Of a stretch of DNA of 51,606 nucleotides, positions 6,171 through 37,780 are shown piece by piece. The notes below the pieces were generated by a model. The model searched no databases. It worked only from the letters and a program-made list of their open reading frames with translations, and was not told the DNA's origin. The DNA is taken from positions 1 through 51,606 of IMG/VR virus record IMGVR_UViG_3300036770_005494; one strand, written 5' to 3'. Every line of letters begins with the position of its first letter. The stretch's first letter is position 1. Made by a program: the position numbers and the translations under genes. This DNA comes from a virus.

Positions 6171-6308
6171 GTGTTTGAATTACTTTTCAGATATAAGAAT
6201 AGCATGGGATTAAATTCTATATTATTTGAAAATGAGGATACTTTATATGCCTTTATCAAAAAAGAAGATATTGAGGTAGAACAAATTATAGACAAACGAA
6301 GTTCTTGA
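6171..6308 (+). CDS. very small protein, 45 residues, GTG start
   Basis: A 45-codon frame starting with GTG at 6171 (VFELLFRYKNSMGLNSILFE and onwards, ending QIIDKRSS). AAGGA lies 8 bases upstream, at an ideal ribosome-binding distance, and the gap after the preceding gene is only one base. The product is mixed charge with no membrane segment. Function unknown. Support comes from the ribosome-binding site and tight packing only. Confidence 0.5.
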   Translation: MFELLFRYKNSMGLNSILFENEDTLYAFIKKEDIEVEQIIDKRSS

Positions 6309-6314
6309 TATTAA

Positions 6315-6322
6315 AATAAATA
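6315..6322 (+). promoter_or_regulatory. possible late-type promoter box (AATAAATA)
   Basis: AATAAATA matches the T4 late promoter box TATAAATA at seven of eight positions and lies 22 bases before a small gene that itself precedes the tmRNA. AT-rich sequence makes such matches easy by chance, so this is weak. Confidence 0.25.
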
Positions 6323-6343: not shown

Positions 6344-6475
6344 ATGTTTAAAGTAAATTTTGTAGAAAAAGAATTTCCTGCAATTTCGTTGTTTAAAATT
6401 TTTAAGACAAAAGAAAAGGCAGATATCTTTATCAGTGAACTTGGTAATAACTTTGTATCAGTAAAAATCATATGA
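6344..6475 (+). CDS. very small protein, 43 residues, upstream of tmRNA
   Basis: A 43-codon ATG frame (MFKVNFVEKEFPAISLFKIF, then KTKEKADIFISELGNN and a hydrophobic end). AAAGGA sits 7 bases before the ATG, a good ribosome-binding site. It ends at 6475, immediately before the tmRNA acceptor piece, so translation would run right up to the structured RNA. Function unknown. The gene could be cotranscribed with the tmRNA precursor. Confidence 0.5.
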   Translation: MFKVNFVEKEFPAISLFKIFKTKEKADIFISELGNNFVSVKII

Positions 6476-6535
6476 TCGTATGAAGTTGATCGAAAGATGT
6501 TCTGGACGCGGGTTCGACTCCCGCCAGGTCCACCA

Positions 6536-6603
6536 TAAGTCAATTTGCAGACCGTGCCACACTCAGATAGAGAACGTACTGCAGGACGAAGTTGACTTAT
6601 GAT
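6536..6603 (+). other. intervening segment of permuted tmRNA precursor
   Basis: The segment between the encoded CCA and the mature 5' G of the coding piece. CATAAGTCAA (6534-6543) and TTGACTTATG (6592-6601) pair perfectly over 10 bp, stacking on the acceptor stem with one mismatch (C6533/A6602) and an A-U pair between them. The precursor therefore folds as one long hairpin that host tRNA-processing enzymes would open to release two RNA pieces. This is the expected design of permuted pre-tmRNA. Confidence 0.85.
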
Positions 6604-6690
6604 GGGCCTGTACTGGAATTCGACAGGGCAAGTAGTAGTGAGATGGACGATCCGGTAGGCGATGACCGTAAATCAAGCAAATCAATAGTC

Positions 6691-6735
6691 GCAAATGACG
6701 ATTATTTCACTCAGGATCTTAAGCTAGCTGCTTAA
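6691..6735 (+). other. tmRNA tag reading frame (ANDDYFTQDLKLAA)
   Basis: Fourteen codons from the resume codon GCA to TAA encode ANDDYFTQDLKLAA. The bases just upstream, ATAGTC, match the resume-site context of E. coli tmRNA (TAGTCGCAAACGAC). The AND start and the LAA end fit the standard degradation tag, with LAA expected to be read by ClpXP. The end of the frame lies in a hairpin, TTAAGC/GCTTAA (6719-6735), as in helix P5 of other tmRNAs. Confidence 0.9.
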
Positions 6736-6750
6736 ACCTGACGGGGTCTT

Positions 6751-6787
6751 CCTGGTTCATCCTTGTTCCCAAATGAACCAGGCTTTT
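6751..6787 (+). terminator. terminator-like hairpin after tmRNA
   Basis: A perfect 10-bp stem, CCTGGTTCAT (6751-6760) with ATGAACCAGG (6773-6782), encloses a 12-base loop and is followed by CTTTT. It is placed just after the tmRNA coding piece and 15 bases before the next gene's start, so it may define the tmRNA 3' end, terminate transcription partly, or both. The T-run is short, so read-through into the oxygenase and bilin genes is likely. Confidence 0.65.
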
Positions 6788-6801
6788 ATATGAGGACACG
6801 T

Positions 6802-7410
6802 ATGGCTTTTAAAGATAATTTATACGAAGTTGTAAAAGGCGCGGTTAATCCGGATGTACTTAATCATCTAGATATTGAATTTGAACTACTTCGGAAAGTG
6901 ATGTTTATTACTAATAAAATTCCCGATACACCTGAGAATGCTCATCGACTTAACGATGATCAAATAACAAATAGTTTTTCCTATTACTCTGCACTTTGTT
7001 TTGAAACCTTGGCACAAACATTGAAACCTACAATGGAAGAAGTTACCGGGTTAAAATTATATCCTACCTATACATATGCGAGAATATATTATAATGGTGC
7101 AGAAATGGCAAGACATACTGACAGGCCAAGTTGCGAATTTTCAACTACGGTTTGTATATCGAATGATGAGGAATTTGGACCATGGGATATCTGGTTTAAA
7201 TCTACTGAAGGTAAAGAATTTCCAATATGGTTAGAACCTGGGGATGCCTTAATTTATAAAGGTGATATTTTGGAGCACTGGAGAAATCCATATGATGGCA
7301 AGAGGCAAACTCAGGCATTTCTTCATTATGTAAATAAATTTGGTAAGTATAGGGATTATAAGTATGATAGACGACCATACATTGGACTTTCTTCTGACTA
7401 CAAACGATAA
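6802..7410 (+). CDS. second 2-oxoglutarate/Fe(II) dioxygenase
   Basis: A 202-residue 2OG-Fe(II) oxygenase-type protein. The likely iron ligands are H105-x-D107 (MARHTDRPS) and H159 (ILEHWRNPY), with R168 (GKRQ) in the 2-oxoglutarate position. The order and spacing fit the family, but the sequence differs clearly from the prolyl-hydroxylase-like protein at 3559-4176 and resembles a separate group found in T4-like marine phages. I start it at ATG 6802 because GAGG lies 6 bases upstream; the ATG at 6790 and a TTG at 6763 are in frame but the latter lies inside the tmRNA terminator hairpin. Substrate unknown. It is the first gene after the tmRNA and directly precedes the heme oxygenase gene. Confidence 0.83.
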   Translation: MAFKDNLYEVVKGAVNPDVLNHLDIEFELLRKVMFITNKIPDTPENAHRLNDDQITNSFSYYSALCFETLAQTLKPTMEEVTGLKLYPTYTYARIYYNGAEMARHTDRPSCEFSTTVCISNDEEFGPWDIWFKSTEGKEFPIWLEPGDALIYKGDILEHWRNPYDGKRQTQAFLHYVNKFGKYRDYKYDRRPYIGLSSDYKR

Positions 7411-36236: not shown

Positions 36237-37780
36237 TGGCATACGAAGATAGAAGAATTACAGGTAGTACATCGGGATCTACGGTATGGGGTTCTAATCC
36301 TTATACCGACGATTCGGATTTTTCCGTTGCTGCGGTACACGCAGGATTAGTACTGCCAGGAGAAACCAAGTATATAAGATTAACAGAAGTAGGCGAATTA
36401 ACAGGCTATACTGGTACTACTAAAAATGGAGTAACAACTAAGGCATGGGATACTCCCTGGAATGGTTTATACATAACTTTAGTTGGAGAATTTCCTTCTG
36501 ATGGTTCAGGATCCTCATATGGTTATGATGATTGGTATGAGGAATTTTCGGGTTCACTTTTAAAAGGTATAAACAAAACTGAAGCATTACGTATCGGTCA
36601 GTTAATCGCAACTTTTTATTCCGGCGATTCCAAAGTAACAGACGATGTTGGAAATACTTGGTATGCATTATTTAGAAAACCAGATGCGGAAGGATTAGCA
36701 TATTGGACACGAGAAGCATACTTAAGTTATAATAGAAATCCTTTTAATCTAACCTTTGCTAGATTCTTCTTTAGTTCATCTAAACCTGGAGATCTAGATT
36801 ACAATCGAACAAGGACGGCAAGTAAATCCTTTCTAAGCGGAAATGGCGTAGGTGATTTTTACGATCGAGGTTCTTCTGCTCAATCTTCAGTAATACAGTC
36901 AATTACTAGCGGATTATCAATACAAGAAGCAAGGCAAGTAGTATTAGATCTGTATGCATCTATAGGCAGAGGCCCAACCTTTGGAACCAAACTTAGCGAA
37001 ATTGATCAAGCGGGTTATGATTTTTGGGTAAATAAAATAGTTAATGACTCTCTAACTGTCGCGCAAGCTAATACTCAATTTACTGCAGATGTCAATAACT
37101 TTATAGCAAACAATCCGGAGGATCCATATACTAGATATGTTTTAAGTTGGAGGGCCACTCAAGAAGCAGGGCCCCCAGCACCTCCGGTAGTACAACCCCC
37201 GACAATTACACGCGAAGTAGAACCTATACAATCTACGTATGTGCCTTCTGCAGATGGAAGTACTAGGGTTATGTGGGCGGGGATTAAGAGTGGTGTAGGT
37301 TTAGTTTCAATATTTAACAATCCTAAAAATTCTCAGGGCGATGATTCTCCGTTAAATTCTCCGTTAAGTAATCTAAATAGAATATTTTTTGATACTAGAT
37401 TTAATTATTTAAACATAGTATCTGAAGCAAATCCTACCATTAATTTTCCTTTCAGAGATATTAATAAACAAAACACAGGCAAAAAGGGTAAAGATACTAG
37501 ATTAATACCGGTTGAGGGAGAAGCATTATATACAGCATACCCACATAATTTAGGATATGTTCCTTCGGGATTGCTCTATGATTTAGATAATAATCAGGCA
37601 TTGTCTGGCAATACATTTTTGCAAAATATAGATAACACATCCTTTAGATTAGTATACTTACTAGTAGATGATACCAATTTTTATATCAAGGAAAGATTTT
37701 TTGTACGAGGATTCCCGTTACCGTCTTTATCAAAATCTTTTAGAATTTTAGTATTTAATAATCCCGCAGGAGTAGTATAA
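36236..37780 (+). CDS. structural protein with two DUF4214-type modules
   Basis: A 514-residue protein of the host-contact cassette. Residues about 135-205 contain WYALFRKPDAEGLAYWTREA and TASKSFLSGNGVGDFYD, a DUF4214 pattern (LYxRxPDxxGLxYW), and about 230-300 contain a second, weaker copy (VLDLYASIGRGPTFGT to GYDFWVNKIV). DUF4214 units occur in bacterial surface and secreted proteins. A Pro-rich linker (PPAPPVVQPP, about 315) separates them from an unrecognised C-terminal domain. The start overlaps the peptidase stop (TAATG) and its stop overlaps the next start. Confidence 0.65.
   Translation: MAYEDRRITGSTSGSTVWGSNPYTDDSDFSVAAVHAGLVLPGETKYIRLTEVGELTGYTGTTKNGVTTKAWDTPWNGLYITLVGEFPSDGSGSSYGYDDWYEEFSGSLLKGINKTEALRIGQLIATFYSGDSKVTDDVGNTWYALFRKPDAEGLAYWTREAYLSYNRNPFNLTFARFFFSSSKPGDLDYNRTRTASKSFLSGNGVGDFYDRGSSAQSSVIQSITSGLSIQEARQVVLDLYASIGRGPTFGTKLSEIDQAGYDFWVNKIVNDSLTVAQANTQFTADVNNFIANNPEDPYTRYVLSWRATQEAGPPAPPVVQPPTITREVEPIQSTYVPSADGSTRVMWAGIKSGVGLVSIFNNPKNSQGDDSPLNSPLSNLNRIFFDTRFNYLNIVSEANPTINFPFRDINKQNTGKKGKDTRLIPVEGEALYTAYPHNLGYVPSGLLYDLDNNQALSGNTFLQNIDNTSFRLVYLLVDDTNFYIKERFFVRGFPLPSLSKSFRILVFNNPAGVV

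Follow-up and report, generated by a model that had tools for sequence, protein, structure and literature searches.

A circularly permuted tmRNA gene of a T4-like phage and its place in a viral lineage with putative genes in the tmRNA spacer

Phages and islands often carry fragments of ssrA, and permuted tmRNAs of phages have already been published, as for the phage Melnitz. Passages of a survey of phage tmRNAs (PMC9004378) report tmRNA genes in 402 of 18,146 phage genomes, amounting to 133 unique structures, 53 of which were two-piece; 50 of these 53 came from marine or aquatic samples. An earlier sequence-only reading of the DNA analysed here had called a permuted tmRNA unusual for a T4-like phage; with 53 such structures in print, the view that the kind is new or rare was not upheld. 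The Rfam model RF04321 was built in a study (PMC11915505) whose database, according to the part of it consulted, holds 79 bacteriophage tmRNAs, and a passage of the huge-phage paper (PMC7162821) mentions tmRNA and SmpB.

The window, that is, the whole stretch of DNA analysed, is a virus record of 51,606 bases without recognised genome ends and was therefore treated as a fragment. The phage is T4-like by its gene content, which includes matches to the T4-type baseplate PHROGs of gp6 (phrog_219, 6e-150) and gp5 (phrog_430, 1.7e-85) and Pfam matches for gp32 (PF08804), DNA ligase and PhoH. In tblastn, gp6 matched 2321 of 50,697 phage records, every one at less than 60% identity; T4-like phages rank among the best of these 2321 matches, the top 30 of which include pelagiphages, Melnitz, cyanophages and Caulobacter phage Cr30. 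SmpB (PF01668) was detected in none of 14 phage records (the window fragment and 13 others, several of them fragments) as against 10 of 14 control genomes; since no SmpB gene was found in these phage records, host SmpB is presumed. Heme oxygenase (PF01126, 7340-7945) and ferredoxin-dependent bilin reductase (PF05996, 7887-8612) lie adjacent to each other about 0.6 kb downstream of the tmRNA gene, and a passage of PMC11480375 describes this pigment pair from aquatic phages.

Positions 6474-6783 (+) of the window hold an intact circularly permuted tmRNA gene. The covariance-model check proposed in the sequence-only reading succeeded: with cmscan against Rfam, the permuted model RF04321 (tmRNA_permuted) matched 6474-6735 at 133.1 bits (cut-off 47). 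RF01850 (beta_tmRNA) matched 6427-6759 at 114.5 bits (cut-off 84), and no other Rfam family exceeded its cut-off in the whole window. ARAGORN called a single permuted tmRNA (tmRNA*, 6443-6826) and no tRNA genes in the window. The locus has the anatomy of RF04321, with the acceptor half before the coding half, a 7-bp acceptor stem between them, the T arm and the CCA in its position. All parts lie on the + strand and, unless stated otherwise, were read directly from the sequence. The acceptor (3') piece (6474-6535, 5' boundary approximate) carries the signature GUAUGAAG-N18-GGAC and contains the P2 strand UGUUCUG (6498-6504), a T arm with a 5-bp stem and the loop TTCGACT (6508-6524), the 3' strand of the acceptor stem, CAGGUCC (6525-6531), the discriminator A (6532) and an encoded CCA (6533-6535). 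A 68-nt spacer (6536-6603) follows, which forms a hairpin and ends in the leader UGAU (6600-6603) directly 5' of G1. The coding piece starts at the putative RNase P site with the 5' strand of the acceptor stem, GGGCCUG (6604-6610), and continues with the P2 strand CAGGGCA (6624-6630), the tag frame (6691-6735) and, by eye, a terminal hairpin (6751-6782) with the 10-bp stem CCTGGTTCAT / ATGAACCAGG, followed by CTTTTAT; the stem of this hairpin is also present, by eye, in the related viral locus L082. The acceptor stem comprises 7 bp, including G3-U70 formed by the U of CAGGUCC, and the P2 helix 7 bp, two of them G-U. The tag frame encodes ANDDYFTQDLKLAA, 14 amino acids long, from the resume codon GCA at 6691 to the stop codon UAA at 6733-6735.

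The sequence-only reading had postulated a two-piece permuted tmRNA in a T4-like phage, with a 7-bp acceptor stem including a G-U pair, a 7-bp P2 and a full tag frame, and on each of these points it agrees with RF04321, ARAGORN, the T4-type genes and our own reading of the sequence. The acceptor end at 6535 and the coding start at 6604 that it gave also stand, whereas the acceptor piece starts at about 6474 and not at 6481. A 43-aa ORF (6344-6475, +; stop codon 6473-6475), with AAAGGA upstream of its start, adjoins the acceptor piece; it had no match in Pfam or among the other loci fetched, and in 100 of 117 loci of the family, the window included, an ORF of 30 aa or more on the same strand terminates no further than about 130 nt from the signature. 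The one + strand promoter-like site near the tmRNA (6289-6317) lies 5' of this ORF and is at chance level, with four promoter-like sites observed in the tmRNA region and 3.5 expected, and a scan found no terminator-like site near the tmRNA.

The ends of the spacer pair with each other. The first 11 nt after the CCA (6536-6546) form a helix with the stretch that ends 4 nt before G1 (6589-6599), and none of 2000 shuffles reached this 11-bp terminal helix. The segment 6525-6610 folds with z = -5.78, the acceptor ends and the spacer making one long precursor hairpin, interrupted at the CCA/UGAU step by one C/A mismatch. Among the first 17 phage genes compared, the terminal helix had a shuffle P <0.01 in 12, and it did not reach this level at the offsets tested in L085, L102, L103, L104 and L107; by eye, the spacer ends of L102 look complementary in a shifted register. 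In the family of loci that carry the signature, at least 7 bp form between the spacer ends in a fixed register in 96 of 117 loci, compared with 9.8% when arms were swapped between loci, and shuffled spacers reach 7 bp in 0.3% (78 of the family loci); thus, the spacer arms change together, and the covariation that the sequence-only reading had offered as a further check is present in the paired parts of the relatives. The spacer of L082 is unlike that of the window in sequence, yet has complementary ends of its own, and the UGAU leader is found in 82 of the 117 loci.

Heuristically called tags of the relatives end in LAA in 68 of 78 cases. ARAGORN proposed a 24-aa tag for the window gene, which starts too early, because in the near-identical gene of L082 the same program calls ANDDYFYQDLKLAA. 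This 14-aa tag was called in both L259 and L082, although their acceptor pieces and spacers differ. Very long apparent tags with an inner ANESRYALAA were seen in the coding pieces of L307, L309, L325, L326, L334 and L336; which codon is the resume codon in these loci is not certain, and their real tags may be shorter.

We are highly confident that the window phage encodes an intact permuted tmRNA that would work by ordinary trans-translation. The gene is probably a real, working one, and a role in ribosome rescue can reasonably be inferred. Its anatomy, pairing and tag frame are all present and are conserved with change in relatives, and expression would yield a single transcript, whose acceptor stem and spacer helix would be joined across the CCA/UGAU step into one long hairpin. 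Host tRNA-processing enzymes would remove the spacer, RNase P presumably cutting at 6603/6604 and 3' processing taking place after 6535, and the two pieces would stay joined by the acceptor stem and P2. The CCA end would be charged with alanine, presumably via G3-U70, and together with host SmpB the RNA would free stalled ribosomes and append ANDDYFTQDLKLAA, whose LAA end may mark the product for host proteases.

Alternatively, the RNA might be made and charged mainly to displace the host tmRNA, either blocking the tagging of phage proteins or imposing its own tag, with host-protein recycling as the outcome. The window tag is indeed unlike tags such as ANDERFALAA of the relative L084, degradation of host proteins for amino acids is proposed in a passage of PMC9004378, and a passage of PMC11915505 states that the endogenous tmRNA is inhibited in E. 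coli by a phage DS6A tmRNA that lacks a CDS. We nevertheless regard this as unlikely to be the main role, since the tag frame is intact and LAA is kept, likewise in most called tags of the relatives, which fits ordinary tagging. The two roles are not mutually exclusive.

The window gene is a member of a large viral lineage of permuted tmRNAs. In its acceptor piece, GUAUGAAG stands exactly 18 nt 5' of GGAC, and our scan of viral contigs revealed this signature in at least 120 viral stretches, whereas with a slightly widened T loop it was found in none of 369 genomes from the class of Dechloromonas. Out of 121 signature loci examined, 118 are permuted, the window included (117 by script and L269 by Rfam and reading), and the three not scored as permuted (L212, L245 and L293) are truncated by a contig end 84-97 nt past the acceptor. 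The script required a 7-bp acceptor stem, so the stem in script-called loci is not independent evidence; G3-U70 is present in 117 of 117 of them. The 117 permuted loci comprise 102 distinct cores. Since the flanks of 85 of 95 loci tested fall into one single-linkage component, the family counts represent related phages rather than independent origins. The tmRNA of L082 is 90% identical to that of the window over 139 columns and retains the anatomical parts and an almost unchanged tag.

Of 78 stretches that precede the tmRNA in the relatives, 18 contain TTGACA (1.4 expected), which falls 15 times into the -45 bin, and 41 contain TAAATA (8.3 expected), which falls 23 times at -20. These counts suggest sigma-70-type promoters in some relatives. 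The T4 late promoter TATAAATA was found in 3 of 78 stretches, with 1.0 expected from shuffles.

Phylogenetic analysis with IQ-TREE over 144 columns separated 48 permuted rows (40 phage and 8 bacterial; alpha-type rows, L091 and Melnitz excluded) from 11 standard rows with support of 99/91. The window groups with L082 and L084 at 95/99, and its five nearest listed tree rows are viral. IQ-TREE did not resolve how phage and bacterial rows are arranged inside the permuted group, its bootstrap not having settled, and either direction of transfer is compatible with this tree; a single clade of all 40 phage rows was neither rejected (p-AU 0.149) nor demonstrated. FastTree returned a phage cluster with middling support, in which analysis L105 (Alcaligenes phage) came next to the standard rows and L085 was the partner of L106 (Acinetobacter phage), and on account of these positions the two are not clearly members of the lineage. 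An extra base in the D-like loop (TGGNNTTCGAC) was considered as a viral hallmark and rejected: it occurs in only part of the phage genes, is absent from many viral rows, and the bacterial L134 has a 14-nt loop. A relaxed scan of genome contigs gave three matches (two Dechloromonas, one Herbaspirillum), and a second motif pattern gave none in 300 genomes of the Dechloromonas order, a zero that carries little weight given how strict the pattern was.

We also consider it unlikely that the phage recently captured the permuted ssrA of its present host, an origin implied by the host matching proposed in the sequence-only reading. Such a capture would agree with the betaproteobacterial Rfam match at clade level and with L132 and L134, two loci in genomes of the Dechloromonas order whose permuted ssrA has an encoded CCA and a UGAU leader. 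The grouping of the window with L082 and L084 among viral rows argues against it, as does the signature, common in viral stretches and absent from the 369 sampled genomes; a stricter phage-like pattern with the extra D-like-loop base also had no match in genome contigs, which is weak evidence, as the pattern demanded an encoded CCA too. That the gene is a functionless decayed or att-site fragment of a host gene is hardly credible: ssrA fragments are frequent on phages and islands (so a passage of PMC9004378), but here the gene is whole, with all parts intact and the tag frame open, its relatives' spacer arms change together, and intact conserved copies exist in many phages.

The sequence-only reading had also expected the permuted form to restrict the host range to bacteria able to process permuted tmRNA, which our data do not support: cultured phages with permuted tmRNAs include those of Stenotrophomonas, Xanthomonas, Acinetobacter and Alcaligenes. 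Stenotrophomonas, Xanthomonas and Acinetobacter probably have one-piece tmRNA genes, and enzymes of tRNA processing occur in bacteria generally. As these enzymes carry out the cleavage of permuted tmRNA, according to a passage of PMC11915505, permutation need not confine a phage to hosts with permuted genes. These observations suggest that the form of a phage tmRNA is apparently not tied to that of its host, which removes the host-range argument and raises the question of whether phages spread permuted tmRNAs. Nor does the match to RF01850 name the host, because phages of several hosts, namely L102 and L104 (Stenotrophomonas), L107 (Xanthomonas XacN1), L106 (Acinetobacter) and L105 (Alcaligenes), also pass its cut-off. 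In Xanthomonas phage XacN1 (AP018399.1) two permuted copies with equal scores (37231-37530 and 356026-356325) lie about 319 kb apart, perhaps in terminal repeats. An RNAcentral entry for maltophilia, mentioned in a passage of PMC8928761, may stem from a phage or be a genuine gene of the chromosome.

Among bacterial genomes, RF04321 was matched at E 1e-12 in 2 of 369 from the class of Dechloromonas, one being the Dechloromonas genome used as centre; above cut-off in 9 of 200 from its order; and in 31 of 120 from its phylum, the centre included in both. For the large genome samples, scoring used stricter filters, at the cost of weak matches. We take the order and class, in GTDB terms, to be Burkholderiales and Gammaproteobacteria, and the matches in the phylum are presumably mostly Alphaproteobacteria. 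Two of the nine order matches are of other types, G149 being standard by geometry (L137) and G230 alpha-type (L135). The alphaproteobacterial-type permuted tmRNA of L135 lies near a contig end and may reflect transfer or contamination. In the Dechloromonas genome G050 (contig C1, 1035817-1036400; L109), two divergent permuted tmRNA-like genes stand on opposite strands about 150 bases apart, and L111 is similar.

No ORF nested like those of relatives lies in the window spacer, whose only reading frames are one of 16 codons beginning with TTG and another that begins in its final bases. Among 117 signature genes, 20 have a spacer with an ATG ORF longer than the shuffle expectation (P <0.05; 300 shuffles per locus, about 6 expected by chance, ORFs of 24 codons being borderline singly). 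Together with L269, which was not in the shuffle set, 21 of 118 genes have nested ORFs, of 24-122 codons. The start lies 10-13 nt after the CCA in all 20 and in L269, and the stop is the UGA of the UGAU leader in 14 of 20, or 15 of 21 with L269. A Shine-Dalgarno-like stretch (e.g., UAAGGAG) lies in the 5' helix arm for many of these ORFs, while some, L204 and L271 among them, lack it. The longest frame (L269:538-906, 122 codons) fills a 382-nt spacer, and further examples are L195, L219, L234, L239, L254, L271, L292 and others. A scan for CCA, GGAG and ATGAA revealed 33 stretches, 18 permuted and 15 not permuted by script (9 of standard geometry); all 18 permuted loci encode a hydrophobic peptide of 22-24 aa (e.g., MNDDLTPLAIGVVVVLVVFALVLL) with its stop at the leader, although the scan selected for such ORFs and gives no estimate of their frequency.

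In one family of nested ORFs (MND), 13 distinct DNA versions gave dN/dS values of 0.18 (codons 2-24) and 0.22 (codons 4-20), while synonymous/nonsynonymous rates in the other two frames were 0.44/0.32 and 0.11/0.36. Differences by codon position were 420/201/653, summed over non-independent pairs, and polymorphic columns at the three positions numbered 15, 5 and 17 of 18. These substitution patterns show purifying selection on this family. Nested proteins resemble separate ORFs elsewhere: that of L239 one in L216 (73% over 52 aa), that of L261 those in L266 and L288 (51% over 43), that of L234 one in L209 (69% over 32) and that of L271 one in L256 (27% over 73; E 2e-14 with composition correction off). 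Stand-alone homologues of these four sit close upstream of the tmRNA in other phages, and by eye a fifth nested protein, that of L221, looks similar to an upstream ORF in L269. The 24-aa microprotein had no tblastn match at E 1 in cultured phages, eight nested proteins searched against PHROGs gave a best E of 0.0098 and otherwise weaker or no matches, and two searched against Pfam, one of them the L269 protein with residues 1-117 of its 122, gave no match. The nested ORFs look like real small genes, placed inside the tmRNA gene in some phages.

Hence, one may tentatively regard the spacer of this lineage's permuted tmRNA as a slot for small phage genes, with the window as a member whose slot is empty, a reading to which we give slightly less than even credence. 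Genes of 24-122 codons would lie inside the spacer; for most of them the 5' arm of the processing helix would contain the ribosome-binding site, and the UGAU leader would supply the stop codon, a single nucleotide ahead of the RNase P site. The same transcript would then serve as mRNA and as tmRNA precursor, and nested translation and tmRNA maturation would be mutually exclusive. Protein genes in the spacer of permuted tmRNAs are not described in the titles and abstract beginnings of the best-matching open-licence articles in PubMed Central, and a precedent in print is possible. If translated, the nested genes would be compound genes, a protein-coding gene inside a structured RNA gene, with possible built-in competition between a protein and a ribosome-rescue RNA. 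The window gene itself is one more phage tmRNA, and the family matters more: the wider result is a viral lineage whose tmRNA spacer can carry putative genes.

Among described systems, the Methylophilales phage Melnitz (MZ577097, L108) resembles the window in being a T4-like phage with a two-piece tmRNA, an encoded CCA, a UGAU leader and paired spacer ends (9 bp), but it lacks the GUAUGAAG signature, has a 142-nt spacer and the tag ANDNYVPVDYALAA, and in FastTree pairs with viral L091 on a branch between the alphaproteobacterial-type rows and the rest. Its ssrA has a glutamine riboswitch in the 3' domain, as reported in a passage of PMC9004378. The Melnitz spacer also contains an ATG frame of 54 codons after GGAGAAGTAT (about 6075-6260 of L108) that terminates 39 nt inside the coding piece, an arrangement that differs from the nested ORFs of the signature lineage. 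The Stenotrophomonas phages Marzo (L102) and DLP_6 (L104) and Xanthomonas phage X1 (L103) are, like the window, permuted with a UGAU leader; Marzo and X1 share GUAUGAAG at the same position, where DLP_6 has GUAUGAUG. Passages on the tmRNA in the literature on Marzo do not mention permutation. The tags of Marzo, DLP_6 and X1 called by ARAGORN (VAANDDSYTVRIAA, ANDDSFAPMAIAA and VAANDADYSVARYA, respectively) are unlike that of the window, and their spacers measure 57, 31 and 126 nt compared with its 68. The betaproteobacterial permuted tmRNA (RF01850), represented by Dechloromonas L109, differs from the window in its 49-nt spacer, in having ACCT instead of an encoded CCA and in lacking GUAUGAAG, but shares with it the same overall anatomy.
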